Shown: one piece after another, positions 570 to 26,107 of the stretch
How positions within the stretch are numbered: the first letter of the stretch is position 1
How the letters are laid out: every line of letters begins with the position of its first letter
Source: a virus
Virus record (IMG/VR): IMGVR_UViG_3300047443_000115
Coordinates: 27,589 to 91,588 of that record
DNA length: 64,000 bases
Reading direction: 5' to 3' (one strand)
Translations under genes and position numbers: made by a program
Notes under the pieces: model-generated
Database searches by the model: none
What the model was told of the DNA's origin: nothing
What the model saw: the letters and a program-made list of their open reading frames with translations, nothing else

Positions 570-2002
570 CAGGCCACCTCCGCGGGTTCGGGATCAGCCT
601 CAGGCATGACGGGATCGGGCGGAGGCTTCGGGCCCGCCTCCAGCGCCGAGAAGTCGCCCGCCATGATGCGCTGCATCGCGTCCTGCGCGGCGGCCTCGTC
701 CTCTTCCTCCATGCGCTCGATCTGCGCCTGCGTGTACCGCAGGTCTTCGCGCGTCTGCCGGAGAGGCACGATCTTCGCCTGGAACTTCTTCACCGAAGCG
801 TCCGCGACCTGCGCCACCGTCGGAGTTGAAGCGTCCCGCCAGATCGTCTCCAGTGACCGGGCCGCCGGATCCCACTCGCCATCCTTCACTCGCAGCACAA
901 GCCGCATGACGCGCTCCCACGAGCCGCCCCACGCCCGCTGCTTCCGCTCCGCGCGCTTCACCAGGCGGGTCTCGCTACTGCGGATCGCATCCGCCGAGGC
1001 CGGGTTCTGGGTGCTGTAGCCCAGGAACTGCGGAGGTAGACCGGACAGGCTGGAGACCAGCTGCGCGAGCTGATTCAGCGTGCTGTGGAAGTTGCTGAGC
1101 GACGCTTCCGGGAACTGGACGACATCCGCGCCATCCTGCTTGGAGCGCTCCGTCGCCCACATCCGGCCGATGATCCGGCTGAACGCCGACACCCGACGGC
1201 CGGACTCATCGACGAAGTCCTCCTCGCCGAAGCCGAACGCCACGCGCCGCGGCGTTGCGTGATACTCGGCGCTGACCATCATGTCCGTTGCGATCTTGCA
1301 GGCCGCGTCGGACAGTGGGATGACGTCCTGGAGCTCCGACACACCGCCCGGACACTTCAGGCGCGGCCGGTTCGGCAGCACCTCGACCAGAACCTCGCCC
1401 GTCTCGTGCTCATCCCTCGGATACTCCGGATCCTCGACCCAATGACCCGACTCCTTCACCCACCACACCGTGGCGTCCGGCAGGTACAGCGTCGCGTGAT
1501 CGACCTTCCGGCCCTCGTCGCCGTCCTCCTGCCAGCGCTTCACCGCAGCCGCCACCCGACGCGTCCGAGGATCGAACTCCGCGAACATGTCCAAGGCGCT
1601 CTCGACGGTGATCAGCGGCGTCGAGTCGTCATCCTCGTTCGCGCCCACCACGATGTACGAGCGCCGCATCGCCAGGGCATCCAGGTGCCCCATCTGCGAC
1701 TGCTCGTCCATGTCATTGGCCTGCCAGATCCGCCAGAGCTCGTCATCGGCGTCCGCCACGCCGGGGAAACGGAAGCCCTCCACGTCCAGGCGCTCCTCGA
1801 TGCTGTCGACGATCAGGCGCGGCCAGTTGATGACGACCTGGCGAACCGTCTCCTGCAACTCCACCTGAAGCTCCGGCGCCATGTACGACAGCGGCTGAGA
1901 GCCCTCGTAGTAGGAGTTCAGGCGCTTGAGCTCGTTCAACTCCTTGTCGTGGCACGAGATCAGGTGAGTCAGCCACTGCAGCTCGGAGCGCTCCACAGGC
2001 AC
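569..2002 (-). CDS. Phage portal protein (SPP1 gp6-like)
   Basis: Forms the dodecameric ring at the head vertex through which DNA is packaged and ejected. 477 residues, a usual length for the SPP1-gp6-like portal family. N-terminal residues include SYYEGSQPLSYM and the NWPRLIVDSIEERL helix seen in actinophage portals; the C-terminus is acidic and Pro-rich. The start is a GTG 4 bp after the terL stop; the stop overlaps the next ATG by one base. The order terS-terL-portal-MuF is canonical. There is no sign of frameshift or truncation. Confidence 0.92.
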   Translation of the reverse strand: MPVERSELQWLTHLISCHDKELNELKRLNSYYEGSQPLSYMAPELQVELQETVRQVVINWPRLIVDSIEERLDVEGFRFPGVADADDELWRIWQANDMDEQSQMGHLDALAMRRSYIVVGANEDDDSTPLITVESALDMFAEFDPRTRRVAAAVKRWQEDGDEGRKVDHATLYLPDATVWWVKESGHWVEDPEYPRDEHETGEVLVEVLPNRPRLKCPGGVSELQDVIPLSDAACKIATDMMVSAEYHATPRRVAFGFGEEDFVDESGRRVSAFSRIIGRMWATERSKQDGADVVQFPEASLSNFHSTLNQLAQLVSSLSGLPPQFLGYSTQNPASADAIRSSETRLVKRAERKQRAWGGSWERVMRLVLRVKDGEWDPAARSLETIWRDASTPTVAQVADASVKKFQAKIVPLRQTREDLRYTQAQIERMEEEDEAAAQDAMQRIMAGDFSALEAGPKPPPDPVMPEADPEPAEVA

Positions 2003-2006: not shown

Positions 2007-3626
2007 TCACCGCATGACGATCATCTTGGACTTCTTCTTGGGACGGGCCAGGCCGGCGGCCGTCGCATCCCCAGCGGCCTCATGGGCGAGGATGCTCGGG
2101 ATCGCAGCGTCGATCTTCTGAGACGGGCTCGCCTTGCCGAGCACATACCGGCCGCCGACACGGGCCGCCTTACGGGCGTTCCGGACGTGCGCGGCCGTGA
2201 TCACACAGCCGTCATGCCGGAACACCGACTCCGTCTTCGTGACGTCCGTTAGCAGTCGCTCCGCCGCCGCATGCATCTGCACCGTGCGGTACGTGTACCA
2301 GCGCACGACGCGCTTTTCGCCGTGTCGGTCCGCCCATCCGTCGACCTCCGACTCCCAGTACGGCGGATCGCAGTACATGCGCAGCACGTCGAAACGCGCG
2401 AACACCTCGTCGACCGCCGCGGCCACTTCAAGGCGAGGCACCTGGCCGCCGTAGTCCGCCGGATTCCAGATTGTCGGCAACTCATCCGGGCCGAATGTCG
2501 GCGTGAACTGGTAGCCGTCCAGCGTCTCCAGGCGGAGCGCTGTCCAGTCATCAACGTCCGAGCCGTCGAAGCCGGCCACGACCGTCGTGCCGTCCGGGAC
2601 CTCGCGGAACTCCGCGAGGGTGTCCCAGGCGTCGCCGTTCATCCAAGACCCGGCGCCGTACACGATGCGGTTCCCGAAGAATCGCTCCGCCTGCTCCGGA
2701 TCCTTCTCCAGTAGCTCGGCAGCCTCCGCCTCGATCGCATCCAGGTCGACGTGCGTCGAGCCCATGTAGACATGCCGGTGGATCTTCCGCCGGTCCGTCT
2801 TGTTCGTGTACTTCAGCGACGCCGGCGGCACCCGGTGGAACCGGAAGATGTCCTTGACCTTCGCCTCGGACGTGGCCTGCGCGACGCTGTTCTCCGACGG
2901 GTTCCACGCATTCGTGGTCTCCATCGTGCGGCCACCCATACCGGCGGCGCCGCGGCGCTGGGTCGTGGCAACCCGGTCCATCTTGTTCGCCGGAGTCCAC
3001 AGTTGGGTCTCATCCTGAAGGACGAACGTCACCGGGTTACCCAGGCGGGACTGCGCGCTGCTGGTGACGACGTCGATGCGGCCGTCATTCGGAAGGCGAA
3101 TGAACTGCTCCCCGACCCGCATCAGCTCACCCAACGGGCCGGTTCGGATCATCGCCTGCAGAGGCCGGTAGACGTTGTCGGTCTGCTCCTCCGAGAACGC
3201 CGTGATCTGCACCAGCGGCGTCGGCCACGGAATCGCCATCGGCTCTCCCGGTGAGTACTCGTACACCCACCCGCAGCCGCAACCATGATCGCGGCAGTCG
3301 TACACCTCGCCGCCAACCGCCCAGCCGTCAAAGACCGCTGGTCCAACGCCCTCATTCGCACAGACCGCCGCAGTCCACGGACCTTTCCCCGTCTTCTGAG
3401 GAGCAACACACTGGGACCGGCGGTAGAAGAACGCCGGCGCCAACTGGCCCACCGTCGCAGTTGGCTTCACGCGGTAGAAGTTCGCCGTGCACCACAACTG
3501 CCAGTCGTACATCTGGAACGGCTCACCCTTGCGGAAGCCATCCGGAATGCGGCAATGCTCCTCGATCCAGTCGCAAGCCACCCACAGCGTCGGAAAGTCG
3601 ACGACGAACTCGCTACTCTTCTCCAT
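2007..3626 (-). CDS. terL: Terminase large subunit
   Basis: Packaging motor ATPase and headful/cos nuclease. 539 residues. A Walker A-like APQKTGKG lies at about 75-82 and a Walker B-like VTFVLQDETQ at about 199-208. The C-terminal RNase H-like nuclease begins with an Asp in VVAGFDGSDVDD (about 349-360), with a later Asp in MYCDPPYW (about 417). The start overlaps the end of terS by 14 bp. One oddity is a Cys-rich insert between the Walker motifs (about residues 109-122, CRDHGCGCGW), which could bind zinc; related actinophage terminases with this insert exist as far as I recall, but I could not check. Confidence 0.93.
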   Translation of the reverse strand: MEKSSEFVVDFPTLWVACDWIEEHCRIPDGFRKGEPFQMYDWQLWCTANFYRVKPTATVGQLAPAFFYRRSQCVAPQKTGKGPWTAAVCANEGVGPAVFDGWAVGGEVYDCRDHGCGCGWVYEYSPGEPMAIPWPTPLVQITAFSEEQTDNVYRPLQAMIRTGPLGELMRVGEQFIRLPNDGRIDVVTSSAQSRLGNPVTFVLQDETQLWTPANKMDRVATTQRRGAAGMGGRTMETTNAWNPSENSVAQATSEAKVKDIFRFHRVPPASLKYTNKTDRRKIHRHVYMGSTHVDLDAIEAEAAELLEKDPEQAERFFGNRIVYGAGSWMNGDAWDTLAEFREVPDGTTVVAGFDGSDVDDWTALRLETLDGYQFTPTFGPDELPTIWNPADYGGQVPRLEVAAAVDEVFARFDVLRMYCDPPYWESEVDGWADRHGEKRVVRWYTYRTVQMHAAAERLLTDVTKTESVFRHDGCVITAAHVRNARKAARVGGRYVLGKASPSQKIDAAIPSILAHEAAGDATAAGLARPKKKSKMIVMR

Positions 3627-4920: not shown

Positions 4921-4937
4921 CAGATCTCCAGATGAGC

Positions 4938-5448: not shown

Positions 5449-5450
5449 GG

Positions 5451-13910: not shown

Positions 13911-13935
13911 GGCCCCCGCTTTCGGCGGGGGCCTC
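13909..13935. terminator. Bidirectional terminator between convergent genes
   Basis: GAGGCCCCCGC / GCGGGGGCCTC, 11-bp perfect arms with loop TTTCG. It starts at the stop codon of the 56-residue gene and lies just past the end of the leftward transfer operon, so it can serve both. Confidence 0.8.
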
Positions 13936-13955: not shown

Positions 13956-14414
13956 TCACCCTCGGATGTTGGTCCGGTTGTCGATGCGGACGTTGACGTT
14001 GACCTTGCCGGATCCTCCCCCGCCGCCCATGCGCATCAGGTAGACGATGGCGAGGCACACGCCGGTGCCGACGATCGCGCCGGTGGCTTCGGCCATGGCG
14101 TGGAACATCAGGCCGGCGCCCCCTCCGACTCCCACCGCGCAGATACCTCCGGCGACGAGGCGCTTGGGCCACGGGTCGGGCTGGAAGGTAGCGGGGATGG
14201 CGGGTGGTGAGGCTGCGGTCTGTGCCGGCGGGTGGGCGTACAGGCCGACGGGCCCGTTCGGTGTGTCCATGAACGCGTCCGGCGCCGGGCCGGGCATGAG
14301 GCGCCCGTCGGCGGTGCGGGGCGGCGACCAGGCGGGGCGGATGAACGGGCCTTCGGCTTCGTCGATGGTGGGCCACCCGGCAGGCGGGGACGGCGTGGGC
14401 TGCTGTCGGTACAT
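13956..14414 (-). CDS. Membrane protein of the transfer module (Spd-like)
   Basis: 152 residues. A Pro-rich cytoplasmic first half (TPSPPAGWPTIDEAEGPF) precedes two hydrophobic helices (about 86-108 and 112-128), then a Gly-rich linker and KVNVNVRIDNRTNIRG. It is the last gene of the operon, directly after the translocase. Small membrane proteins next to traB in Streptomyces plasmids are spread (Spd) proteins that help intramycelial transfer; that is the likely role. Confidence 0.65.
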   Translation of the reverse strand: MYRQQPTPSPPAGWPTIDEAEGPFIRPAWSPPRTADGRLMPGPAPDAFMDTPNGPVGLYAHPPAQTAASPPAIPATFQPDPWPKRLVAGGICAVGVGGGAGLMFHAMAEATGAIVGTGVCLAIVYLMRMGGGGGSGKVNVNVRIDNRTNIRG

Positions 14415-14434
14415 GGCGGGCTCCTTGGGTGGGG

Positions 14435-16438
14435 TTAGGCGACGGCTTCTGCGGGGGTCTTGGCGGTAGCCCAGCTACCGCGCTTGATGTTCTGGACGAG
14501 GCCTTCTTCGGCAAGGCGAGCGAGCGTGGTGGACGCGGTGGACAGGGGCGCGTCGACGGCGAGAGCGATGGCACCGGTGTAGGCGTATTCGACGGTGTCG
14601 AGGTGAGCGAGGATCGCCGCCTTGTATGTGGTGCGTGCGGCCTTGGCGGCGGCGGGGGTCTGCGCCGGCATCTTCTGGGGGCTGAAGGTCCTGGCGACGA
14701 CCTGCTGCGGGGTTCGGGCGCCGTCCTTGAGGATCGCCGCCCACTTGGCGTAAGACAGTTCAGCGACCGCGCGGTCTTCGGGGCCGAGGTGCCAGGTCTC
14801 GCCCTTGGTGGCCCACCCGAACACGTCATCGATCAGCGAGGTTCGCATCACTGACGGGCGGGCCTGAGGACCGAGCGCGTAGCCGAGACCAGAGGTCGTG
14901 GTCTTGTCCGGCCACAGCCGCGGCAACTTGTTCGGCGAAACGTCGAACGACGACTGGAACGCAACCTGCCCGGACAGACCCGAGCTGGTACGCAGCACGA
15001 TGACATTGCCCGACGCGACCGAGTCCCGCAGCGGACTGGAGTTGCCGAGCTGGGACAGCAGTGGCATCTGCGTGACCAGGCGCAATTTGCAGCCGCACTT
15101 GCGGCCCATGAGTGCAATGTCCTCGGCGGCTTCGACGGCTAGCGGGTGGCAGGAGAACACGTCGTGGGCTTCGTCGATGGTCAGGGAGTACAGCGGGTCC
15201 CTGCCGTCAGCGACACGGCCGGGCTCGAAGGACCCCTTGCCCTTGCGGGTACGCCCCAGGTGATCGGTCCAGATCATTGAGGCGTACCGCTCGTTGCGGC
15301 CCAGCATCACGTCGCGCATCACCAGCAGTTCGATGACGCCCTCGGTGGCCGAGTCGGCGAAGTGGTCGACGTTGTCCTGCCAGTCGGGCAGGGACTGGCC
15401 GCGCTGCGGGTCGACGACGCGCGACACGATGAGGCCGTCGGCGTGCCGTTCGGTGGCCAGTAGTTCGTCAAGGAGCCGGGACTTGCCGGAGTCGGAGCTT
15501 CCGGAGATGAGGCTATGAACGGCGCCGGAGCCTGGCTTGTAGTGCTGGTACTCGACCGGGATGGCGTCGGCGTAGACGCCGATCATCGAGATCCCCGTCT
15601 CGGGGTTGAATGCGGACGGGCCGGGCCAGTAGTTGAGCTGCTGCAGCGGATTCCGGGGGTACACCGACAGGTGGGCGCGGCGTTCGGAGCCGGTCTCGGT
15701 GCGCTCGATCACAACCGATGAGAGCGGCACGTCGTAGGCGCCCGCGATCTTCACGGCGGCAGAAATCGCGTCGTCGACCGTGAGTAGGCCCGGGGGGAGG
15801 TCGATCAGTGCCTTCCATGCCCCAGGGACGCCCTCGATGCCCTCAGGTGCGATGAGCGCGGAGTCGGGAAGCCGGCGGCCCGGAGCGGCGATGCTCTCGC
15901 GCCAGATCCGCACCCACTCGTCTTCGGTTTCCGCCTCCGTCTCGGCGATGGGGCGGATGCGGTGGTGCCACCACCACGGGCCGCCGAGGACGGCGAGGAA
16001 CCACAGGAAAGTGAAGCCGGGAACGGGCGGCGCCCACGGGCCCACCAGCGTCATCGTCATCAGCAGCGCTAGAGCGGCACCGGTGTTGACGAGGGCGTAG
16101 AACAGCTCGCGGCGCGACAGGCCACGGCCGTTGCGGGTGCGGCGGCGAATCCACCAGGCCAGCGCGATGGCCGCGGCCACGTCGGCGGTCGCGGCGCTGC
16201 GTACACCGCCAGGCGCCAGGTGCATGGCACCCCCGGCGATGTCGACGAGAGCCGCGGCGTAGGCGGGGGCGAGACGCCGACGGTGCTTGATGCCAAACCG
16301 GGCAGCGCGGTGCAGGCCCTGAACGGTCCGCACGGTGCGCTCCAGCCGGATGCGGCGCGCCCTGAAGGGCACGACGGACACCGGGAGCGTCGGAACCTTA
16401 CGGACTCCGGTGAGCAGCTGGGGTGTGGTGTGGTCCAT
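14435..16438 (-). CDS. traB: TraB/FtsK-type conjugative DNA translocase
   Basis: Motor that in Streptomyces plasmids moves double-stranded DNA between hyphae as a membrane hexamer. 667 residues. N-terminal membrane part has hydrophobic stretches at about 63-97, 113-133 and 141-157. RecA-like domain: Walker A SGSSDSGKS (about 312-320) and Walker B LYSLTIDEAHDVF (about 416-428). The C-terminal 60 residues form a winged helix (KAAILAHLDTVEYAYTGAIAL...LARLAEEGLV), the counterpart of FtsK gamma/TraB that reads short repeats. A strong hairpin precedes the gene. Some actinophages carry FtsK-like genes too, so a phage-specific role is the alternative, but the neighbours favour transfer. Confidence 0.85.
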   Translation of the reverse strand: MDHTTPQLLTGVRKVPTLPVSVVPFRARRIRLERTVRTVQGLHRAARFGIKHRRRLAPAYAAALVDIAGGAMHLAPGGVRSAATADVAAAIALAWWIRRRTRNGRGLSRRELFYALVNTGAALALLMTMTLVGPWAPPVPGFTFLWFLAVLGGPWWWHHRIRPIAETEAETEDEWVRIWRESIAAPGRRLPDSALIAPEGIEGVPGAWKALIDLPPGLLTVDDAISAAVKIAGAYDVPLSSVVIERTETGSERRAHLSVYPRNPLQQLNYWPGPSAFNPETGISMIGVYADAIPVEYQHYKPGSGAVHSLISGSSDSGKSRLLDELLATERHADGLIVSRVVDPQRGQSLPDWQDNVDHFADSATEGVIELLVMRDVMLGRNERYASMIWTDHLGRTRKGKGSFEPGRVADGRDPLYSLTIDEAHDVFSCHPLAVEAAEDIALMGRKCGCKLRLVTQMPLLSQLGNSSPLRDSVASGNVIVLRTSSGLSGQVAFQSSFDVSPNKLPRLWPDKTTTSGLGYALGPQARPSVMRTSLIDDVFGWATKGETWHLGPEDRAVAELSYAKWAAILKDGARTPQQVVARTFSPQKMPAQTPAAAKAARTTYKAAILAHLDTVEYAYTGAIALAVDAPLSTASTTLARLAEEGLVQNIKRGSWATAKTPAEAVA

Positions 16439-16466
16439 CGGTTCGGGTCTCCTCGCGGTGATTGGC

Positions 16467-16495
16467 GGCCCGGCCGCAGATGGTGCGGCCGGGCC
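16467..16495. terminator. Hairpin in the traB leader
   Basis: GGCCCGGCCGCA / TGCGGCCGGGCC, 12-bp perfect arms with a 5-base loop, between the upstream membrane protein gene and traB. No U-tract. Probably an attenuator that keeps translocase expression below that of the genes before it. Confidence 0.55.
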
Positions 16496-16506
16496 GGGGC
16501 GGGCTG

Positions 16507-17637
16507 CTAGTCGCCGGTGTAGAAAGCCTTCTCGGCGGCCTGCGGGGTGGAGTCGTGGGCTTCCTTCATCAGGCTGTGCTTGCGGATCACCAGCTCGCGG
16601 GCGTGGCCGGCCTGGCCGCGCAGGAATTCGGCGGCCTGCAGGCGGGTCCGGGCGGCGTCGGAGCGGGACTTGAACGGCTCGATGAGGGAGTTGATGGCGC
16701 CGAGGGATTCGCCGTCCAGGCCGAGGGAGGCGAGGTTCGAGACGAGGCTCTCGATGTTGGCAACTTCGGCTTCGGAGCGCTGCACGTCGGCGGTGGCGTC
16801 GTCGATGTTCGCGGTCGCTTCGACGGCGATTGCTTCGAGTCCAGCAATGACGCCGGTGAAGTTCGCAGCGTCGGCGGTGGTGGTGGTGATAGGCACGGTC
16901 AGGGGGGTCCTTCCGTTTTTGACGGCCGGGATGGCCGTCCTTTTGTGGGATGCGATGTCGAGAACCGGGGCGAGTCCCGGCTCGGTGCTGTCGGGGCTTG
17001 GTTTGTCGTCGCGGGTGGCGGCCGGGCACAGGGGTGTGCCGTCGGCGTGAGAGAACGGGGCTTCCATCGCCGTGGAGCCGGCGCCGGGTACGACTCGGGT
17101 GGGCTTCTTCTTCACGACGGACTTGTTGCACACCGAGCAGGCGAAGTCGGGCGCCGGGTCTTCGCCGACGGTGATGACGGGGATGGCCTTCTTGACGAAG
17201 TCCGGCACGTCAAGGTCGTCTTTCAGGGGCGCTGCGGCGTTCTTGTTGTCGAGGGCGGTGATGACGACCTCGACTGTGGCTGCAGGCGCCGGGGCGTCCT
17301 CGACCTTGGGGGTCTTGGTCGCATCAACCTTGGGGTCGTCGACCGGGCGGCCGAGCTTCTTCGACGTCCAGTCCCACCCGCGGCTCCAACCGGCCTTGGT
17401 GCCGCGGCCGAAACCGCGGGTTGCCGTCCCCAGACTGCGAGCGGTAACGACACCGACGGCCGCACTGGTGGCGCCGAACCCGATCCCGGCGATCTCGCTG
17501 CCGGACCGCTCCCGCGCTTCTTCCTCCTTTCGGGTCTTCAGTTCCTGGTAGTGGGCATAGGGGGCGATGGCGGCACTCTTGGCGCCTTGGTAGGCGCCGG
17601 TGAAGAACGCCACGAGGATGATCAGTAGGAGTTCCAT
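16507..17637 (-). CDS. N-terminally anchored transfer-module protein
   Basis: 376 residues. A single hydrophobic N-terminal helix (MELLLIILVAFFTGAYQG) is followed by a charged linker, a second weakly hydrophobic GIGFGATSAAVGVV, a Cys pair (ACSVC) with C and H further on, and a C-terminal helical coiled coil (DDATADVQRSEAEVANIESLV). The longer frame is antisense shadow; this ATG lies one base after the upstream stop. The domain order suggests a membrane-tethered partner of TraB. Not a named family to me. Confidence 0.65.
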   Translation of the reverse strand: MELLLIILVAFFTGAYQGAKSAAIAPYAHYQELKTRKEEEARERSGSEIAGIGFGATSAAVGVVTARSLGTATRGFGRGTKAGWSRGWDWTSKKLGRPVDDPKVDATKTPKVEDAPAPAATVEVVITALDNKNAAAPLKDDLDVPDFVKKAIPVITVGEDPAPDFACSVCNKSVVKKKPTRVVPGAGSTAMEAPFSHADGTPLCPAATRDDKPSPDSTEPGLAPVLDIASHKRTAIPAVKNGRTPLTVPITTTTADAANFTGVIAGLEAIAVEATANIDDATADVQRSEAEVANIESLVSNLASLGLDGESLGAINSLIEPFKSRSDAARTRLQAAEFLRGQAGHARELVIRKHSLMKEAHDSTPQAAEKAFYTGD

Positions 17638-17638
17638 G

Positions 17639-18163
17639 TCAGCGCGCCCCAAACATCCACGCGAGGGGCCAGCTGATGATGCTGGCCCAGATGGCGCAGA
17701 CGCCCATGACGATGGCCCCGGCGGTGCCCGGGATCGTGGCGCCGGCGAGAGGGGTGGCGGCGGCGTAGGCCAGGGTGCGGTTAGTGACCTTGTGGCCGTG
17801 ACCGCCTCCGCCATTACCGCGTCCGGCGCCCTTTGCGCCTGCGCCCTTGGTGCCTGCGGATGCGCCGCCCTTGTGGGGCCACAGGTCGGCGATGAGTACG
17901 GCGACGACGACCAGGCCGGTGATGCCGAGCACGACGGTGCCGGTCCACTGGCCGATGAATCCGCCGAGCCACCCGTCGGCCGTTGAAATCATGGCTCGCA
18001 CGGATCGGCCGAGCGGCGTCCCGATGATCGCCGTGACTCCGGCGATCACCAGGCCCACTGTGAGTCGCGGCCACGCCTTGCGGCCGACCGTGCGGAGCAG
18101 AGCAGCGATAACGAGGGCGATCACGCCTACGCCGACGCTGATCCCTGCATGGAGCAGGTTCAT
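17639..18163 (-). CDS. Multi-pass membrane protein of the transfer module (Spd-like)
   Basis: 174 residues with AAAGGAGG 7 bp before the ATG. Hydrophobic helices at about 5-24, 30-46, 65-92 and 145-170, with a Gly/Ala/Lys-rich cytoplasmic loop (GGASAGTKGAGAKGAGRG) before the last. Resembles SpdB-type pore proteins of Streptomyces plasmids in size and layout; identity is by context. Confidence 0.65.
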   Translation of the reverse strand: MNLLHAGISVGVGVIALVIAALLRTVGRKAWPRLTVGLVIAGVTAIIGTPLGRSVRAMISTADGWLGGFIGQWTGTVVLGITGLVVVAVLIADLWPHKGGASAGTKGAGAKGAGRGNGGGGHGHKVTNRTLAYAAATPLAGATIPGTAGAIVMGVCAIWASIISWPLAWMFGAR

Positions 18164-18293
18164 GAGCGTCCTCCTTTGGATGTTGTTGCAGTTACGGACA
18201 GTTGCGGTATCCTCGCGCGCGCCCGCAGGCGCGTCGCCTGACGCGTAGGAACTGGGGACTTCACTTCCGGCAGCGAATGTGAATTGTGAAGAG
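18164..18293 (-). promoter_or_regulatory. Intergenic region upstream of the membrane-protein/traB block
   Basis: A 130-bp gap within an otherwise gapless operon. It contains GC-rich inverted sequence around 18205-18240 and the partial direct repeat CAACTG/TAACTG in the leftward sense. It may hold an internal promoter for the membrane and traB genes. No site can be assigned with certainty. Confidence 0.35.
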
Positions 18294-18902
18294 TCACGGA
18301 GAGCCACCATTCGACGGGCCCGCAACCGCCCACAAGCCGGGGCCGATCCTCGCTACGGCCCCCCTGTTCGCGAGCCGGTTCAAGACCGTGGAGACCGACG
18401 ACTTGTTCAGACGAAGGGCATCCGCCAGTGCGGTGGTCGTCTCGGGAGACGGTGCTTGAGCGAGGTGGGCCAGAACCGATGCCGTGACCGCAGGCCTGGC
18501 GGGGGGCGTCACGCAGGCGGCTGCGCTGATCACCTTCGCTTGCGTTCGCATCTTCGGCGGCGGCGTGGCCCTGACCAGGCGTTTCGGCGTCGATCGCGCC
18601 GGGAGTGGCCACTGCAGGTGACCGGCCCGAACGACTTCGCGCTCGACGATCTCCACAGCGTCTCGATCGCCGAAGTCGAACCACTCGCCGCGGGTTCGGA
18701 ATCGGCGCAGAATGCTATGGAGCTTCTGCTCCAGATCCCTTCCGCCTGCGGTTTTCCACATCACGCACAGAGGGACGGGGCAGCCGCCCTGAAGGGATAC
18801 GAGTCGGCGATCGATCTTCGTCGTTGTTCCGATCTTCACATACCGGAAGTCCGGAGACCCAATGACGTAGACCACCGAGCCCGCTTGCCCTGCCCCGGTC
18901 AC
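18294..18902 (-). CDS. GIY-YIG (T5orf172/MUG113-like) domain fused to a winged helix
   Basis: 202 residues. N-terminal nuclease-type domain: VVYVIG (10-15), YVKIGTT (21-27), an Arg at about 32-33, Glu58 in DLEQKL and RGEWF (71-75), the pattern of T5orf172/MUG113 GIY-YIG proteins. A basic linker leads to a C-terminal winged helix (VLAHLAQAPSPETTTALADAL...VLNRLANRGAVARI) very like the one ending TraB in this window. GTG start overlaps the upstream stop. It could recognise and nick or cut a transfer locus; homing is the alternative. Confidence 0.75.
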   Translation of the reverse strand: MTGAGQAGSVVYVIGSPDFRYVKIGTTTKIDRRLVSLQGGCPVPLCVMWKTAGGRDLEQKLHSILRRFRTRGEWFDFGDRDAVEIVEREVVRAGHLQWPLPARSTPKRLVRATPPPKMRTQAKVISAAACVTPPARPAVTASVLAHLAQAPSPETTTALADALRLNKSSVSTVLNRLANRGAVARIGPGLWAVAGPSNGGSP

Positions 18903-19144
18903 AGCCCGTCCTCCCTGCTCACGGCGCCCTGCAGTCCGACCAGCGTGGTTGCCAACTGCATCCACGCCTCGCCCTGCTGCTGGGGCGGGAGGTCGTTGAT
19001 GATGCGGCGCAGGTGATCCCAGGAGGCAATGGCCTTCTCTTCCGGCGTGATGGCCGCGTCGTACTTGGCCTGCCAGAACACGGTGAGGTTGTCTCGCCGG
19101 CGCTGGGCTCGGGTCTTCTTGCCCGCGCGAGTCGTCTTGATCAT
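18899..19144 (-). CDS. Small basic-to-acidic protein, unknown function
   Basis: 81 residues. An ATG two codons upstream is too close to the GGGAG sequence; this one has correct spacing (8 bp). Basic start KTTRAGKKTRAQRRRDNL, then helical. Likely DNA-associated; unknown family. Confidence 0.55.
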   Translation of the reverse strand: MIKTTRAGKKTRAQRRRDNLTVFWQAKYDAAITPEEKAIASWDHLRRIINDLPPQQQGEAWMQLATTLVGLQGAVSREDGL

Positions 19145-19158
19145 TTCCATGTCTCCCG

Positions 19159-20277
19159 TCAGCTACCGGTGATGGAGCGGACGTTGGGCGATCCGAGCGC
19201 GGCGAGCTCGGGGTGGTCGGCTTCGATGGCGTCGCGGATCCGCTGGCACGACGAGCGGGAGATCGTCTTGTCGGCGAGCTTCCCGGCGACAAGCGCGTCC
19301 CGGATCTCGGTCCACTCCGGGCGCTTGCCAAGATCGGCGTACAGGGCGCGGACGCGCTCACGGCGCCGGTCGGCGACCGACTTCACGGCGCTCTTCTTGG
19401 GCTTGCCCTGAGCGCGCTCGCGGCGCTCGGTCGCGGGCTTCGGCGGGCGCCCATCCTGGGCGCGCTCAACGCGCTCGGGTTGAGCGCTCACCGGGCGCTC
19501 GATCTGGGCGCGCTCAACCACGGCTTCGGTGAGCGCCGGGCGCTCGGGTTCGGCGCTCACGATCGGGCGCTCAACCTCGACGACTGTGGGCGCATGGACG
19601 GGCGCCTCGGCGGTCGTCGCAACACGCTCGCGCCGCCGCGCCTTCTGCTCTCGCGGCGGCGCGATCATGAGGTGCATTCGCCACAGGATGAGAGACGCGA
19701 TCGACGCCACCACCGCGATCAACCACCACTGCGGCTTACCGCCCGCCGTGAGACCGAACAGGCCCACCGCAGCCAGGTGATAGATCACGTTCGCGGCGAT
19801 GGTGAGACCGATCGCCTGCAGGATGTCGCGGTGCCGGCGGAACGCCTGGATGACGTACACGTCGATGACGAGCGGCAGCAGCCACGCCACGCCGCCGCCG
19901 AAGCCGACCATCCTCGCGAGCGAGTACTCACCCGACGCGGTGAGACCGACGGCGCCGGCGATGACGACACGGGCGGCCCATACGTCGAGCTGGGCGGCGG
20001 TCTTCTTCTTCTGATCCGTCTCGGCGGCGGCCTCGTCCCGGATCCGCTGGGCTTCGGCACGCGCCCGGTCGAGCTCCGCCTTGGCGGTGTCGCGGACCCG
20101 GTCGGCATCCTTGCCGGCCTTCTCGTGCATCTCGTTGGCCTTGGCGAGCAGGGCCGCGGCATCGGCGCGGTCTGCTTCGGCTTGCGGGTCGGGCTGGGGC
20201 GGCGTGACGGGCCATACTTCGCCGAACACGGGCATGGCAAGCGGCTTGGGGGTGCCGTTCACCTGGTTGGCGGTCAC
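19159..20277 (-). CDS. DUF2637-like membrane protein with coiled coil
   Basis: 372 residues. Layout: short Pro-rich start, a long coiled coil with heptads (KANEMHEKAGKDADRVRDTA), then four membrane helices beginning VWAARVVIAGAVGLTASGEYSLA and WLLPLVIDVYVIQAFRRHRD, the hallmark of DUF2637 proteins of Streptomyces integrative elements, then a long Glu/Arg/Pro-rich cytoplasmic tail ending in a helix-turn-helix-like RRERVRALYADLGKRPEW. AAGGAG fits the chosen GTG; an ATG five codons upstream contains the ribosome-binding site itself. Likely transfer or partition membrane factor; precise role unknown. Confidence 0.75.
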   Translation of the reverse strand: MTANQVNGTPKPLAMPVFGEVWPVTPPQPDPQAEADRADAAALLAKANEMHEKAGKDADRVRDTAKAELDRARAEAQRIRDEAAAETDQKKKTAAQLDVWAARVVIAGAVGLTASGEYSLARMVGFGGGVAWLLPLVIDVYVIQAFRRHRDILQAIGLTIAANVIYHLAAVGLFGLTAGGKPQWWLIAVVASIASLILWRMHLMIAPPREQKARRRERVATTAEAPVHAPTVVEVERPIVSAEPERPALTEAVVERAQIERPVSAQPERVERAQDGRPPKPATERRERAQGKPKKSAVKSVADRRRERVRALYADLGKRPEWTEIRDALVAGKLADKTISRSSCQRIRDAIEADHPELAALGSPNVRSITGS

Positions 20278-20312
20278 GTCGTTCTCCTTCATGGGGTGGG
20301 GGTGTGGGTGGG

Positions 20313-20543
20313 TCAGTGCTCGGCGCTCTGGTCCTCGGCGACGGTGAACTTCGCCTGCCGCCAGGCGCCCCAAAAGTAGGCGAGGCTGTTGAAGACACCG
20401 AGGAAGGCGGACCCCACCGCGAACACACCCACGGCGAACGGCAGGTGGTGGATGTACAGCTCGCGGGCGAGGAGCAGGGCGAAGACGAGAGCGATGGCGG
20501 CGAAGATCCCGTAGGCGATGGCGGGCTTGTCGGTGGCGGTCAC
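20313..20543 (-). CDS. Small membrane protein of the transfer module
   Basis: 76 residues, GTG start behind the GGAAGGAACCCC leader shared with other genes of this operon. Hydrophobic segments at about 8-25 and 35-58 make two to three helices. Resembles the small Spd-like proteins that accompany DUF2637 genes. Function by context only. Confidence 0.6.
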   Translation of the reverse strand: MTATDKPAIAYGIFAAIALVFALLLARELYIHHLPFAVGVFAVGSAFLGVFNSLAYFWGAWRQAKFTVAEDQSAEH

Positions 20544-20632
20544 GGGGTTCCTTCCGGGATTCGGGTCGGGTTCGGGGTCGCTGGCCGTTCTCCTTGGTGC
20601 TCACCCCGGGGGTTGAGCACCGCGGTCAGCAG

Positions 20633-20863
20633 TCAGCGGGTGCGGACTCGCCGCGAGTCGGTGATGGAGTCGGCAAGGAGTCGGGTGGCGTCGATACCGC
20701 GCGGCACCTCGAAGTCGTGGCGGCGGGGGCACCGGAGACGGGCCTTGCCGCCAGCGCGGCCGTAGACAGTGAGGCCCGTGCGGGCCCTGCATGACGGGCA
20801 GACGGCAGCGACGCCGCCACCGGTGATCTCTCCTGCGTATGTGGTCTCGTACTGCTCGGCCAT
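20633..20863 (-). CDS. Small zinc-ribbon protein
   Basis: 76 residues. AVCPSCRARTG and LRCPRRHDF give a Cys-x2-Cys and Cys-x3-His pair, a minimal zinc ribbon. Leader GGAAGGAACCCC before the ATG. Part of the transfer operon; probably binds nucleic acid. Confidence 0.6.
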   Translation of the reverse strand: MAEQYETTYAGEITGGGVAAVCPSCRARTGLTVYGRAGGKARLRCPRRHDFEVPRGIDATRLLADSITDSRRVRTR

Positions 20864-20887
20864 GGGGTTCCTTCCGGATGGAGTGAG

Positions 20888-21343
20888 TCAGCGGTTGTGG
20901 ATGTGCCGGGCCCCGGTTTCCCGGAGTGCGGTGTGTGCCTGCCGGGCGTGCAGTCCGGCGGTGTCGAGGTGGTCGGGGGTGGCGTCGCCGAGAGCCATGG
21001 CCGCATCGACGGCGCTCTGCGCGAGGGCGATGAGCCGGGTGTCGTCGGTGGCCATGTGGAGGGTGTCCATGGCGCTGGTGACGGCGGACCGGGCCGCGTA
21101 CCGGGCGGTGCGGGCCTCGGCGGTGTCGGGCTGCTGCTCCCGGCGGGCGACGTGCTTCAGGTACTGCTGCTCCCGATGCCGGACCAGTGCGGCCAGCAGT
21201 GCGGGGATCGCGTCGGCCACGGCCTGACGGCGCCGCTCGGCCTTCGCCGCCTCGGTGGTGCGGGTGGAGGTGAGGTGCTGCAGTCCGCCGGCCACGACGC
21301 CACCCAGCAGGGTGCCGATGACGGCAACGATCGTGGCGAGCAT
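20888..21343 (-). CDS. N-terminally anchored helical protein
   Basis: 151 residues. MLATIVAVIGTLLGGVVAGGL is a membrane anchor; the rest is a long charged helix and helical bundle (LTSTRTTEAAKAERRRQAVADA). Proteins of this layout occur in Streptomyces integrative elements, sometimes annotated KilB-like, which I cannot confirm. Preceded by a hairpin and a 140-bp gap, so perhaps a separate level of expression. Confidence 0.6.
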   Translation of the reverse strand: MLATIVAVIGTLLGGVVAGGLQHLTSTRTTEAAKAERRRQAVADAIPALLAALVRHREQQYLKHVARREQQPDTAEARTARYAARSAVTSAMDTLHMATDDTRLIALAQSAVDAAMALGDATPDHLDTAGLHARQAHTALRETGARHIHNR

Positions 21344-21384
21344 GTGGGGCTCCTTTCGGGTTCGATTGCGGGTCGGGTCGTGCA

Positions 21385-21426
21385 CCGGGGTCCTGGGCCG
21401 GGGGGAGCGTTCACCCAGGACCCCGG
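21385..21426. terminator. Hairpin inside the transfer operon
   Basis: CCGGGGTCCTGGG / CCCAGGACCCCGG, 13-bp perfect arms with a 16-base loop, between the 62-residue gene and the anchored helical protein. No U-tract; possible attenuator. Confidence 0.5.
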
Positions 21427-21483
21427 CGGTCTTTGCCGGGCTTGGCAGGTCGTCGGAGCGGTGGTCCGTGCAAGCCCGGCGGA

Positions 21484-21672
21484 TCAAGGGGTGCGGCGGG
21501 TGATGCGGAACCCGGTGCCGTCCTCGGTCGTGTTGCCTCGGACTTCGCGCACCGTGTGGCCGTCCAGGCCGTCGTAGGCGTTCTGGAAGCCGGGCAGCAC
21601 GATCGAGGTGGATCCGTCCGGGCGGGTGAGCTCGTAGGCGGTCACTTCGTGGGACTGGCGGTCGGCGGGCAT
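21484..21672 (-). CDS. Small protein, unknown function
   Basis: 62 residues, beta-rich (YELTRPDGSTSIVLPGFQNAYDGLDGH). It begins 4 bp after the upstream gene with a weak ribosome-binding site. No family recognised. Confidence 0.5.
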   Translation of the reverse strand: MPADRQSHEVTAYELTRPDGSTSIVLPGFQNAYDGLDGHTVREVRGNTTEDGTGFRITRRTP

Positions 21673-21676
21673 GGGG

Positions 21677-21841
21677 TCAGTCGCCGTAGTTCTCGGGGAG
21701 TCCGTGGCGTCGGAGCCACTCGCTCTCCATGGAGTTGGAGCCCTGTGAGTCGTAGTAGGCGCGGGCGTCGTTGACCTCGTCGTCGGTCATCTCGCCGGAG
21801 GTCTTCGGGTACCAGGACTGCTGGGTGTGGTCGGTGCTCAT
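21677..21841 (-). CDS. Very small protein, unknown function
   Basis: 54 residues starting MSTDHTQQSWYPKTSGEMTD and ending RHGLPENYGD. AGAGGAACCCC precedes the ATG, the same leader type as its neighbours; it fills an otherwise empty 205-bp slot in the operon. Confidence 0.55.
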   Translation of the reverse strand: MSTDHTQQSWYPKTSGEMTDDEVNDARAYYDSQGSNSMESEWLRRHGLPENYGD

Positions 21842-21877
21842 GGGGTTCCTCTCGGGTGTGGCGGATGGTCGGACTGG

Positions 21878-22180
21878 TCAGACGAGCTGCAGGTCTTCGT
21901 TGGCGTCGTACAGCAGCCGGTCCGCCTGGGTGAGCAGCCGCTTCCGGGTCTTGGTGTCCTTCGGCCCGAGGTGCTGCACGGCGCGGAGGACGTCGGCGGC
22001 CTGGGTAAGGCATTCGCGTTCGTAGCCGAGCGGGCTGAGCCGGTTGAGGACCGCGTCGAGGAAGCCGGTGAACCCGGCCTCGGTGCAGTCGGCGGCGTCG
22101 AGGGTGATACCGACGGCGTCGGCGATGGTTACGGCGTAGTCGGTGATCAGGGAGTCGACGGTGATGGGCTTGGTCTTCAC
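21878..22180 (-). CDS. Small helical protein, unknown function
   Basis: 100 residues from a GTG behind GAGAGGACCCCC. Helical with acidic face: SLITDYAVTIADAVGITLDA and a C-terminal KRLLTQADRLLYDANEDL. The upstream extension of the frame lacks a start signal. Unknown role in the transfer operon. Confidence 0.55.
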   Translation of the reverse strand: MKTKPITVDSLITDYAVTIADAVGITLDAADCTEAGFTGFLDAVLNRLSPLGYERECLTQAADVLRAVQHLGPKDTKTRKRLLTQADRLLYDANEDLQLV

Positions 22181-22196
22181 GGGGGTCCTCTCGGGA

Positions 22197-22421
22197 TCAG
22201 TAGGCGGGGCCGTCGACCTGGCGGACGTACAGCCGCACGCCGGGGTGTTCGGCCTGGGTGCGCAGTACGTCCTGGACGATGCTGTTGAGCGATCCCGGGC
22301 CGCCGACACCGCCGAAGCTGAGGAGCTCGCCGGTGGCGTCGTTGTAGACCCGGTAGTTCATGTCGACGTCGGAGGTGTCCTTGCGGTCCGGGAGGGGCTT
22401 GCCGTTCCAGTGGTCGCTCAT
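22197..22421 (-). CDS. Small protein, unknown function
   Basis: 74 residues. MSDHWNGKPLPDRKDTSDVD start, a VYNDATGELLSFGG beta hairpin and a SIVQDVLRTQAEH helix. ATGA overlap with the upstream gene. No family recognised. Confidence 0.55.
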   Translation of the reverse strand: MSDHWNGKPLPDRKDTSDVDMNYRVYNDATGELLSFGGVGGPGSLNSIVQDVLRTQAEHPGVRLYVRQVDGPAY

Positions 22422-22588
22422 CGTCCGGTCCCTCCCCGGCGCTCTCGGGTGGGTGCGATGAGCGGCTTGCCGGGAATGCAGGGGCGTCCGGCGAGGTCGT
22501 CACGGGCGCGTTCGGCATCCGCCTTGTCGTGGGCCGTTCCGAGTTCGATGAGACCGTCCTTCGTCCACGTGTAGACCGACCACGCCAT
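22418..22588 (-). CDS. Very small protein, unknown function
   Basis: 56 residues: MAWSVYTWTKDGLIELGTAH, a helix, then a basic end. Coupled on both sides (TGATG before, ATGA after), which is the case for its reality. Confidence 0.5.
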   Translation of the reverse strand: MAWSVYTWTKDGLIELGTAHDKADAERARDDLAGRPCIPGKPLIAPTRERRGGTGR

Positions 22589-22851
22589 CACTGGCCTCCC
22601 TGCTGGCGTCGGGCTTCGTCGATCTTGCGCTGGGCCTCGGCGATCGCGGCCTGACGCTGCCGGACCTGCTCGGCCAGCGCGCGGGCAGCGGCGCCCTGAT
22701 CGGATGCGGTGGACATGGTCACCACCGCCACTGCTGGATCGCCCGGCGACGCGCGGCGGAGCGCCTCGTCAGCCTGCGAGAGCTGGCCACCACCCGGGCG
22801 GGGCAGCGGAGGCAGGGCGGGGACGTCGTCGCGGTGGTCGGCGGCGCTCAC
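22588..22851 (-). CDS. Small coiled-coil protein
   Basis: 87 residues. GTG start overlaps the upstream stop (GTGA). Pro-rich N-terminus, then a C-terminal coiled coil (EQVRQRQAAIAEAQRKIDEA). An internal ATG at 22716 would give a 42-residue helix only. Unknown role. Confidence 0.5.
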   Translation of the reverse strand: MSAADHRDDVPALPPLPRPGGGQLSQADEALRRASPGDPAVAVVTMSTASDQGAAARALAEQVRQRQAAIAEAQRKIDEARRQQGGQ

Positions 22852-23033
22852 GACTGCCCCCTCAGCGTCTCGCGCAGGCTGACGTTCGCCCGGTGGGTCT
22901 CCGCCAGCTCGTACCGGCGGTCGAAGGGCAGGTGCGTGGTGGCCAGCAGGTGCCCCGTCTCGCGGACCGCCTCGTCGGCGGCGGCAAACGTCGTGGCCGT
23001 GGACGGCTGCGGGAGGTCGATGCGGGCGCTCAT
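22848..23033 (-). CDS. Very small protein, unknown function
   Basis: 61 residues, helical (AAADEAVRETGHLLATTHLP), ATGA overlaps with neighbours on both sides. No family recognised. Confidence 0.5.
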   Translation of the reverse strand: MSARIDLPQPSTATTFAAADEAVRETGHLLATTHLPFDRRYELAETHRANVSLRETLRGQS

Positions 23034-23251
23034 CGCACACCCCGCTTCGGCTTCCGTCGGCACCCGGCGGCGTGCTCCTCAGCGTCCCGGCGGGCGAACG
23101 GCAGACCCGCATAGGCAGCTGGGCTGTCGCTGCGGTGACCGGCACTGCACTCCCACCGGTACGGGCTGTACGCGCGCTGCTCCGCCAGCACCTGGGCCGT
23201 GGCGCCGGAGCGCGTCGGGTAGGCCATGCCGTCGATCGGGGTCGCGGTCAC
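23030..23251 (-). CDS. Small Cys/His protein, unknown function
   Basis: 73 residues. YRWECSAGHRSDSP and EEHAAGCRRK supply Cys/His pairs that could hold one zinc. GTGA overlap with the gene before it. Unknown function. Confidence 0.5.
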   Translation of the reverse strand: MTATPIDGMAYPTRSGATAQVLAEQRAYSPYRWECSAGHRSDSPAAYAGLPFARRDAEEHAAGCRRKPKRGVR

Positions 23252-23595
23252 AGGTCGGCCCCCACAAGCTCCAGCTCGGCCTCGACACGCAGGTGCTCGT
23301 CGGCCTCCCACTTGGCGAGGGCCGCTTCGGCGTCGTCCATCGCGGCGGCGAGCACCGGCGTCGGGATGCGGCGGGCGGTCAGCGCGAACGACTCGTACAC
23401 CTCGAAGTCAGCGGCCTGCCAGTCGGCGACCGGAACCTCGGCGGTCAGTACGCCGGCGTCGGCAGTGTGGAACACGATCGGCGCGAACACCTGCGCGGAC
23501 GGCTTCGGCGGGTTCGAGGCACCGGGAGTGCGCTTCGGGAGCGGCGCGGCGGACATGGCGGGGGCGGTCGGGCGGAGGGCGGTGGCGGTGGTCAT
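23248..23595 (-). CDS. Small acidic protein, unknown function
   Basis: 115 residues. Low-complexity start (Ala/Pro), then FAPIVFHTADAGVLTAEVPV and an acidic C-terminal helix (AAMDDAEAALAKWEADEHLR). Coupled to the HTH gene by ATGA. Unknown role. Confidence 0.5.
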   Translation of the reverse strand: MTTATALRPTAPAMSAAPLPKRTPGASNPPKPSAQVFAPIVFHTADAGVLTAEVPVADWQAADFEVYESFALTARRIPTPVLAAAMDDAEAALAKWEADEHLRVEAELELVGADL

Positions 23596-23834
23596 GATGC
23601 GAGCTCCTCTACGGCGGCGGGGACACCCAGGAATTCGAGGACTGCGGAGGGCGGGATCTTCGTCAGGGTCTGGCGAACCTGACCGCTGCCACGACTGGTG
23701 GAGCGCAGGCGGCCGGACTTGACGGCCCGGTAGACCGTGGCCTGGTGGACGCCGATCAACTCGGCGACCTCGGGAACGGTGAGGGAATCCCTCAGCTCGG
23801 CGAGCACTGCGTCGAGTGCGGCTCGGCCAGTCAT
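23592..23834 (-). CDS. Excisionase-like HTH protein, first gene of the transfer operon
   Basis: 80 residues. TVPEVAELIGVHQATVYRAVKSGRLRS is an excisionase/MerR helix-turn-helix with the basic wing that follows in Xis proteins. First gene behind the GntR-controlled promoter. A longer frame runs upstream through the operators and is rejected. It may act as excisionase for the element or as a regulator. Confidence 0.7.
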   Translation of the reverse strand: MTGRAALDAVLAELRDSLTVPEVAELIGVHQATVYRAVKSGRLRSTSRGSGQVRQTLTKIPPSAVLEFLGVPAAVEELAS

Positions 23835-23893
23835 GCGCAGTCCTCCAGATGGGTGCGGAAAGGTGAAGCTGCAGGTGAAGACCACCTGTGCAG

Positions 23894-23907
23894 CTTGGGT
23901 ATCCAAG
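23894..23907. promoter_or_regulatory. GntR-type operator, downstream of the transfer promoter
   Basis: CTTGGGTATCCAAG, a near-perfect palindrome (CTTGG/CCAAG) sitting about 5-18 bases after the predicted leftward start site. The same 14 bases occur at 26094. Confidence 0.75.
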
Positions 23908-23919
23908 TGCGATAGGACG

Positions 23920-23949
23920 ACCATAGAGCGCCCGCCTTGGGTATGCAAG
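23920..23949 (-). promoter_or_regulatory. Transfer-operon promoter with operator over the -35
   Basis: Reading leftward: TTGCAT, 17 bp, TATGGT, close to the sigma-70 consensus. CTTGGGTATGCAAG (23936-23949, plus-strand reading) covers the -35, so a bound repressor would block RNA polymerase. Its twin stands at 26053-26082. Confidence 0.7.
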
Positions 23950-24046
23950 TATTGCGAGTGGGTCACCTTGGAGCGACCTCAAGTCATTGGCGAGGAGGTG
24001 TGGCCTGAGGGGCAGGGAAGGACGTTCGTAGTTCGTCTAGTCGCGT

Positions 24047-24757: not shown

Positions 24758-25531
24758 CTATACGTCGATCACGTATCGAAAGACATGGCGGTCAGTCGGC
24801 ACGCGGGAGTCGAGCACCTCCAACGGCTTGCCGCTGGAGTCGTAGGCCGTCCGCAGGATCCGCGCGATGGGAACGCCGGCCGGGATGTCCAACTGCTCGG
24901 TCTCAAAGGGCTGGGGCATGCGGATGTCGAGGTCTTCGACGAACTGGACGATACGGCGGCCGATCGGGCCGTCGGGGTTCTCTATTACCGCATTGACGCC
25001 GCCCTTGATCGGGCGAGGCTCTGCGATCGGAGTCCCGGCCACGAGGTCGCGATCGTAGTAGCCGTCCACCAGTTGCATGGGGCTGTCGTCCACAGCGAAG
25101 AGGCGGCGGCGAACCAGGACGGGCGTGCCGGTCTCGACGCCAAGCCTGCTGGCGATCTCCTCCGGGGCCGGAACCTCGGACACTTCCGTAATGGTCTGCT
25201 TGGCCCGCTGGCCCTGCGCTGCAGCCTCGGCGTTGTAGTTCGAGACGCCGGTGGCTCTGCGCTCGCGGTAGATACTGCCGACCTGGAGCATGCTGACGTG
25301 CGGTCGTTCGCGGACGAACGCGCCCTTGCCTTGGTGCGTGGTCACGAGCCCCTCCATTCGGAGGAGGGCAATGCCCTTGCGTACCGTCGCCCGGGTCACA
25401 CCGAAGCGTTCCGCCAGTTGGTGCTCCGAAGTGAGCTTGTCCCCGGGGGCCAGATCGCCCCGAAGGATCTCCGCACGCAGCTCGTTGGCGACCCGCTTGA
25501 ACGGGTGCTCCTGGTTCGGGTTGGGTGACAT
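24758..25531 (-). CDS. GntR/HutC-family repressor (KorSA-like) of the transfer module
   Basis: 257 residues. N-terminal winged helix: FKRVANELRAEILRGDLAPG, LTSEHQLAERFGVTRATVRK, GLVTTHQGKGAFV. C-terminal UTRA effector domain (about 90-250) with VRRRLFAVDDSPMQLVDGYY and RTAYDSSGKPLEVLDS. The transfer repressor KorSA of pSAM2 is also GntR-family. Palindromes of one type occur at its own start, before the transfer operon and before the rightward operon, so it is the likely master repressor. ATG chosen: the upstream TTG lies within the operator. Confidence 0.85.
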   Translation of the reverse strand: MSPNPNQEHPFKRVANELRAEILRGDLAPGDKLTSEHQLAERFGVTRATVRKGIALLRMEGLVTTHQGKGAFVRERPHVSMLQVGSIYRERRATGVSNYNAEAAAQGQRAKQTITEVSEVPAPEEIASRLGVETGTPVLVRRRLFAVDDSPMQLVDGYYDRDLVAGTPIAEPRPIKGGVNAVIENPDGPIGRRIVQFVEDLDIRMPQPFETEQLDIPAGVPIARILRTAYDSSGKPLEVLDSRVPTDRHVFRYVIDV

Positions 25532-25545: not shown

Positions 25546-25559
25546 CCTGGATATACAAG
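25546..25559. promoter_or_regulatory. GntR-type operator at its own gene
   Basis: CCTGGATATACAAG, 15 bp before the GntR ATG. Matches the CTTGGnTATnCAAG pattern with a less perfect left arm; suggests autoregulation. Confidence 0.55.
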
Positions 25560-26052: not shown

Positions 26053-26082
26053 CTTGCATACCCATGCTGCGCAGGCTACGGT
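26053..26082 (+). promoter_or_regulatory. Promoter of the rightward operon with operator over the -35
   Basis: TTGCAT, 17 bp, TACGGT. CTTGCATACCCATG (26053-26066) covers the -35. Same layout as the transfer-operon promoter but facing right. Confidence 0.65.
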
Positions 26083-26093: not shown

Positions 26094-26107
26094 CTTGGGT
26101 ATCCAAG
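26094..26107. promoter_or_regulatory. GntR-type operator, downstream of the rightward promoter
   Basis: CTTGGGTATCCAAG, identical to the site at 23894 and placed the same distance beyond its -10. Supports joint repression of both operons. Confidence 0.75.

Follow-up and report, generated by a model that had tools for sequence, protein, structure and literature searches.

A TraB-family transfer module of probable conjugative-element descent upstream of the late operon of a presumed temperate Streptomyces phage

Phages and conjugative elements are normally treated as two separate kinds of mobile DNA; in Streptomyces this line is known to be crossed by plasmid-phages such as ZL12, which replicate as plasmids. 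A dual exit, as virions and by conjugation, is not new as an idea, having been reported for Streptomyces plasmid-phages in passages of PMC4170104 (citing Chen et al.) and PMC3583192; according to a passage of the latter, conjugal transfer of ZL12 requires a tra gene and two neighbours. The Nonomuraea plasmid-phage PhiNon1 (NZ_LT559120) integrates at a tRNA-Val gene and has a reported multicopy circular form (PMC5431353, in passages that do not mention conjugation). In a literature mostly limited to non-subscription papers, we found no account of integrative Streptomyces phages with a TraB cassette whose position is fixed; the phage-plasmid papers examined treat P1-like elements and mobilisation genes, and Streptomyces is absent from their text. 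Here we describe a TraB-like DNA translocase and its surrounding tra operon in the final 64 kb (bases 27589-91588) of the 91,588-base IMG/VR virus record IMGVR_UViG_3300047443_000115. This 64,000-base stretch is called the window throughout, and positions are window coordinates unless they carry another label (Table 1).

Tail, endolysin, tape measure and capsid genes lie to the left of the window, which itself holds portal, terminase, tra operon, early genes and integrase. Nearly all genes between ~10.2 and 23.8 kb run leftward, and we take the tra operon as ~13.9-23.8 kb because a hairpin (13909-13935) directly follows the gene at 13956-14414. As a preliminary description of this DNA had proposed, the operon sits between phage gene blocks, with head genes (TerL and portal, capsid further left) on one side and phage early genes, antirepressor and integrase on the other. 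The host is most likely Streptomyces, judging by a terminase with 62% identity to that of Streptomyces phage Kromp and by the presence of related elements in Streptomyces isolates. We lean towards the view that this is a temperate Streptomyces phage whose TraB-type transfer module, placed just upstream of the late operon, descends from plasmids or from actinomycete integrative and conjugative elements (AICEs); sequence comparison shows the TraB family membership, the motor and winged-helix architecture, the synteny of the module and its repeated position near the terminase.

The translocase carries Walker A (GSSDSGKS) and Walker B (LYSLTIDEAH) motifs, and profile searches against the PDB return FtsK/SpoIIIE-type motors (4nh0, E = 2.7e-9; FtsK 2iuu, E = 1.2e-8). 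Its hhalign alignment to pIJ101 Tra (P = 96%, E = 3e-9) spans motor to winged helix, and NCBIfam plasmid_TraB matches at E = 1e-14, a score far below the curated cut-off; Pfam FtsK_SpoIIIE (PF01580) gives no match and PHROG functional labels no useful one. An AlphaFold2 model places helices at residues 57-160 and has an alpha/beta core and, C-terminally, a winged helix (605-658; predicted local distance difference test, pLDDT, ~82-90), for which site recognition is a prediction. Its best Foldseek match in the PDB is TcpA, the coupling protein of pCW3 conjugation (E = 1.5e-10), followed by FtsK (E = 6.5e-9). The TraB/FtsK-type motor and winged helix of the preliminary description are thereby confirmed, and its membrane helices in part: several helices are predicted at the N-terminus, where model confidence is low, and only one exceeds the hydropathy threshold. 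No isolated phage in INPHARED matches the window TraB at E<=1e-3, and 102 actinomycete plasmids match it in the same kind of search. Membership of the TraB family of conjugative elements is supported by these comparisons.

The gene order around traB points the same way. From start to end the operon encodes a helix-turn-helix (HTH) protein, many small proteins, a DUF2637-like protein, an 81-aa protein, a GIY-YIG protein, a four-helix membrane protein, a 376-aa protein, the translocase and a two-helix protein, so that the DUF2637 gene and several small membrane-protein genes foreseen for this leftward operon are indeed there, the multi-helix proteins by hydropathy. The series DUF2637, small gene, ~170 aa, ~300-450 aa, TraB is common to the window and Streptomyces plasmids, and a similar order occurs in PhiNon1 and in AICEs with a DnaB/DUF3987 replicase and integrase. 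The DUF2637 assignment is real but divergent (the same-position gene of an AICE reaches E = 9e-39 in Pfam). Homologues of the 174-aa protein always lie directly upstream of traB, with 44% identity to AICE-type loci (L044, L045, L046, L048) and 25-31% to phage-clade loci, and the C-terminal 132 aa of the 376-aa protein are 53% identical to the traB-adjoining gene of Streptomyces monomycini (L044) and 36% to that of an AICE. Plasmid NZ_CP109267 has a GIY-YIG gene in the matching place, and homologues of the HTH_17 protein lie near GntR genes in L013, L046, L048 and L053. The flanking membrane genes are syntenic with plasmid and AICE modules, and DUF2637 is almost absent from isolated phages, with one match among 50,697 records. 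That sole match to the window protein (L087:4185-4499) is in the Micromonospora element pMLP1, filed as a phage, in which profile search finds no TraB.

A single-protein scan of IMG/VR found two relatives of the window TraB and an alignment-based scan 23 loci; a second alignment (A2) found 10 genome loci, the first having no stretch conserved enough for a genome scan. In the resulting tree the window TraB pairs with that of S. monomycini (support 100/99), and the next join is to four AICE-type TraBs and one further chromosomal copy (80/91, not decisive), consistent with the Streptomyces integrative conjugative element make-up first proposed for the module. The 18 TraBs of Streptomyces phage records form one separate shallow clade (100/100), and forcing the window TraB into it is rejected (approximately unbiased test, p = 3.5e-5), so a place inside a phage-only FtsK clade, which would have spoken against conjugative descent, is not what we find. 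In the TerL tree the window phage is sister to G009 and then to the prophage of Streptomyces sp. H27-H1 (both 100/100), and both of these carry a phage-clade TraB (L019, L053) in the same place as in the window. The 376-aa and 174-aa genes follow the affinity of TraB (best matches L044-L046), and the window DUF2637 follows the phages instead (56-58% over ~235 aa to the same-position gene of L015, L019 and L033), which would place a recombination joint at ~18.2-19.2 kb. We infer that the TraB-Spd block was swapped into the window phage in place of a different TraB. We rejected chimeric assembly as a cause, G009 and H27-H1 being independent records with TraB upstream of a related TerL.

The same joint, with AICE-like TraB, 376-aa and 174-aa genes against an adjoining phage-like DUF2637 gene, could also mean that the block arrived when the phage happened to recombine with an AICE or plasmid, and that it is carried unused. 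We hold this to be very improbable: the block occupies the position of a different TraB, all 30 loci compared encode a full-length TraB (637-709 aa), as does the window, and the ratio of nonsynonymous to synonymous substitution (dN/dS), at 0.19-0.32 in eight phage-clade TraB pairs, against 0.12-0.20 in two AICE pairs and 0.14 in one plasmid pair, indicates purifying selection in the phage clade.

Among integrated conjugative-type elements the nearest TraB relatives are 47-49% identical, and the AICE label of these elements is based on gene content. Around TraB, Streptomyces sp. WMMB 322 (L046) has DUF2637, DnaB/DUF3987 replicase and integrase genes, identified by Pfam; G003 (L013) matches this layout in gene order and has an integrase with 66% identity, and L045 and L048 likewise carry an integrase, at an equal distance. 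The S. monomycini element (L044) has a ParA-like gene nearby. Locus L013 had been a candidate phage TraB and was dropped, as its neighbours, a replicase-sized gene and an integrase in an L046-like layout, suggest an AICE beside a prophage.

Among the 23 IMG/VR records and seven plasmids compared, a phrog_9 terminase is present in 16 (15 IMG/VR records and PhiNon1) and absent from the six other plasmids. Adding the H27-H1 prophage gives 17 TerL-bearing records, not independent samples, in 13 of which TraB and TerL share a strand, with TraB 3.0-7.8 kb upstream; the exceptions are G004 and G010 (TraB at the contig edge), G020 and PhiNon1. One of the 13, G015 (L025), counts only if its contig is circular: TraB and TerL stand at opposite ends, which suggests a circular or permuted genome, and would then be 4.5 kb apart. 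The window TerL is 10.8 kb downstream of traB, likewise on the same strand. Because the TerLs of records with TraB upstream fall in several deep lineages, yet the 18 phage TraBs form one shallow clade, the cassette appears to move between phage lineages while keeping its place. A broader proposal, which we put forward tentatively and think somewhat more apt to fail than to hold, is that an interchangeable TraB-Spd cassette, lying upstream of the terminase at a constant location, is common to integrative Streptomyces phages whose heads belong to several unrelated lineages; phages, plasmids and AICEs would swap it among themselves, and the phages would use it to spread at hyphal contacts besides spreading as virions.

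On the reading of a phage with a working transfer module, the GntR protein would bind the palindrome CTTGGGTATCCAAG in the lysogen and thereby silence the tra operon. Once the prophage is excised, hexamers of TraB located where hyphae touch would bind a recognition site via the winged helix and pump circular phage DNA, still double-stranded, into the adjoining hypha. The small membrane proteins may help the DNA cross septa, and the phage integrase would then fix it in the recipient; virions would be the second exit.

Several observations weigh against this account. The AlphaFold2 model of the translocase has a mean pLDDT of only 57, a low overall confidence; the window TraB itself, with its nearest relative ~52% identical, falls outside the selection estimate; and no convincing attachment-site (att) repeats were found between the ends of the record, a single contig. 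The Spd proteins of the preliminary description agree in position and membrane topology, on which the label rests because profile comparison finds no homology between DUF2637-like proteins and pIJ101 SpdB, so that we assign the small membrane proteins a putative Spd role. Lastly, the 8-bp TraB-recognition repeats (clt) that had been expected did not appear: there is no exact 8-mer cluster near traB, although degenerate repeats could escape the search, and a repeat finder returned nothing striking there. Exact 8-mer clusters occur only inside the replication-initiator gene. No clt has been described for pSAM2 either (PMC9513070).

The missing clt would suit a module that acts within one mycelium only, moving phage DNA through septal cross-walls to colonise compartments without lysis and without transfer between mycelia. 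In plasmids, TraB is linked both to Spd proteins and to spreading within the mycelium (PMC4170104, PMC9513070), and a hyphal host with cross-walls would presumably reward such spreading. Plasmid TraB, however, is itself the protein of inter-mycelial transfer (PMC4170104), and the gene content of the AICE-type elements that hold the nearest relatives implies cell-to-cell transfer; we regard a purely intramycelial role as unlikely, though it deserves serious consideration.

A further point against a conjugative function is that remote FtsK-like translocases occur in isolated Streptomyces phages with no DUF2637 gene annotated around them. Because such proteins are found in phages of ~130 kb (Elmer), the translocase alone is no proof of conjugation. 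It might instead serve the phage cycle, in clearing or positioning DNA, in genome resolution before packaging or in host takeover: FtsK-like genes are present in Elmer and Wofford and also in Hiyaa and Galactica, PHROGs files the ZL12-type protein under host takeover, and TraB stands directly upstream of the terminase in many records. We judge this improbable, as AICE TraB is a closer relative of the window TraB than any phage FtsK is, and no INPHARED phage matches the window TraB at E<=1e-3, while the Elmer protein covers only positions 85-444 of the 655 in the TraB model, leaving out the winged helix.

With transfer between hyphae retained as the favoured function, the regulatory region offers a plausible switch. 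The GntR/UTRA protein is likely a KorA-like repressor of the tra operon and is 30.6% identical to ZL12 gp080, the GntR gene product beside the ZL12 FtsK region. The pattern CTTGNNTANNCAAG occurs three times in the window and in none of 100 shuffles, a significance that is overstated, as the pattern was derived from these sites; an independent repeated-palindrome test on the 2.7-kb stretch that holds these sites gave a shuffle frequency of 0.025. The same test detected no such palindrome around the GntR genes of relatives, so that the predicted operator is supported for the window only. The interval that separates the GntR gene from the tra operon holds, on the other strand, a HicA-like/HicB-like toxin-antitoxin pair (24084-24691, +; Pfam HicA E = 4.5e-6, HicB E = 6.9e-6, each borderline with respect to the cut-off).

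Table 1. Features of the window discussed in the text (TM, transmembrane).
Feature	Position	Strand	Basis or remark
Portal protein	569..1996	-	Pfam SPP1_portal E 6e-59; 77-78% to G009
Terminase large subunit (TerL)	2007..3626	-	phrog_19179 E 2e-163; 70% to G009, 61% to Streptomyces sp. H27-H1 prophage
152-aa protein, two predicted TM helices, final tra operon gene	13956..14414	-	Hydropathy; hairpin 13909-13935
TraB-like FtsK-family double-stranded DNA translocase, 667 aa	14435..16438	-	N-terminal hydrophobic helices, Walker A/B motor, C-terminal winged helix
376-aa protein, one N-terminal TM helix, Spd-like by position	16507..17637	-	Hydropathy
174-aa protein, four predicted TM helices, Spd-like by position	17639..18163	-	Hydropathy
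GIY-YIG-type (MUG113/T5orf172) and winged-helix protein	18294..18890	-	Pfam E 2e-11
81-aa protein	18899..19144	-	BLAST matches, same place in AICE-type loci: L044, G026 and G003 elements
DUF2637-like membrane protein, 377 aa	19159..20292	-	Pfam DUF2637 E 0.011
76-aa protein, two predicted TM helices	20313..20543	-	Hydropathy
HTH_17 DNA-binding protein, operon start	23592..23807	-	Pfam HTH_17 E 1e-9 on 23592-23966
Palindrome CTTGGGTATCCAAG, predicted operator	23894..23907		Upstream of tra operon
Second copy, CTTGGGTATGCAAG	23936..23949		One mismatch
GntR/UTRA regulator	24758..25531	-	Pfam UTRA E 3e-23, GntR E 9e-19
Degenerate copy, CCTGGATATACAAG	25546..25559		Directly upstream of GntR gene
Degenerate copy, CATGGGTATGCAAG on minus strand	26053..26066		Upstream of divergent genes
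Perfect copy, CTTGGGTATCCAAG	26094..26107		Upstream of divergent genes
Antirepressor, phage early region	59268-60173		
Phage tyrosine integrase	62340..63536	+	phrog_1 E 2e-48; Pfam Phage_integrase

As a whole the record shares features with both AICEs and plasmid-phages. It has the integrase gene expected of an AICE, in fact two tyrosine recombinases, the second (G000 4897-5943, L002) lying near the left record end outside the window, contrary to the earlier statement that no second integrase gene is present; a serine-resolvase N-terminal domain (G000 1022-1450, L002) is likewise near that end. An AICE should have no virion genes, and TerL, portal, capsid, tape measure and endolysin are present; these are the morphogenesis genes expected of a plasmid-phage, in a record that may be incomplete. 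The claimed absence of plasmid replication genes stands for ParA, with no match in the full record (other plasmid replication families were not all tested), and for the AICE-type DUF3987 replicase, also absent (RepSA, DUF3631 and Prim-Pol models not run); ParA/ParB of ZL12 have no convincing match either (plasmid Rep families not run). A phage-type initiator is present at 44390-45568. This replication-initiator/HNH-type gene (-) contains an iteron-like array, TTCACTGA four times at 44832-44977 in 24-bp units by Tandem Repeats Finder, which is likely a phage origin.

Other genes of the phage were noted in passing. A MuF/VG15-like head protein (L003:9178-11157, continuing into window 1-569, which holds the N-terminal part only) has an intein-like insert at residues 222-513 (Pfam Intein_splicing E = 0.0035, below the cut-off). 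The early region includes a TnpB-type RNA-guided nuclease gene (38302-39555, -; NCBIfam guided_TnpB E = 9e-103, over the cut-off). Elsewhere are three DNA methyltransferase genes (40888-42693, 37361-38152 and 48876-50249, -), one of C5 type and two of N6/N4 type, an RNA-ligase-like protein (28434-29000, +; Pfam RLIG1 E = 6e-13) and a glycosyltransferase resembling NodC (30869-32218, -; NCBIfam E = 7e-63, under the cut-off); glycosyltransferase genes likewise adjoin GntR in the Kitasatospora plasmid NZ_CP108210.

What would set these elements apart is the combination of phage and transfer module with an integrase, no ParA match, a repeated position, and a block exchanged between phages and AICEs. 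If the proposal is right, gene flow by phage and by conjugation would overlap in these antibiotic producers, prophages that form no plaques could still spread, and there would be a testable reason why no isolated INPHARED phage matches the window TraB.

Each of the closest described systems shares part of this arrangement. The isolated Streptomyces phages Elmer, Wofford and Hiyaa have FtsK-family proteins, but remote ones, and that of Elmer lacks a match to the winged helix and is encoded in a region with no annotated DUF2637 gene; Riptide (cluster BE1), a phage of similar size to Elmer (~130 kb), is described as lytic in a passage of PMC12509530. In pIJ101 the motor and C-terminal winged helix of Tra (KilA) align with those of the window TraB and a GntR gene lies beside tra, although it is an 8.8-kb plasmid and its SpdB is unlike the DUF2637-like proteins. 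The pSAM2-type AICEs of S. albidus, WMMB 322 and S. abyssalis (L045, L046, L048) resemble the window in membrane-gene neighbours, DUF2637, a GntR-like gene and a tyrosine integrase, whereas the WMMB 322 element has a DnaB/DUF3987 replicase, the three genomes have no TerL match, and the window element lacks DUF3987 but carries the head, tail and lysis genes of a phage. PhiNon1 also holds a terminase, and its DUF2637, small genes, 397-aa gene and TraB-like gene follow the window order, but its TraB is only ~27% identical and its TerL is not next to traB. ZL12 (pZL12, NC_013420) differs in its ParA/ParB and circular genome, where the window record has no ParA match and a phage integrase at its end, and its FtsK protein is only remotely related to the window TraB (hhalign P = 78%, E = 2e-5); like the window, it is a ~90 kb phage with a leftward FtsK-type gene (gp071) ~2.6 kb upstream of TerL (gp067), a membrane-protein gene and a GntR regulator nearby.

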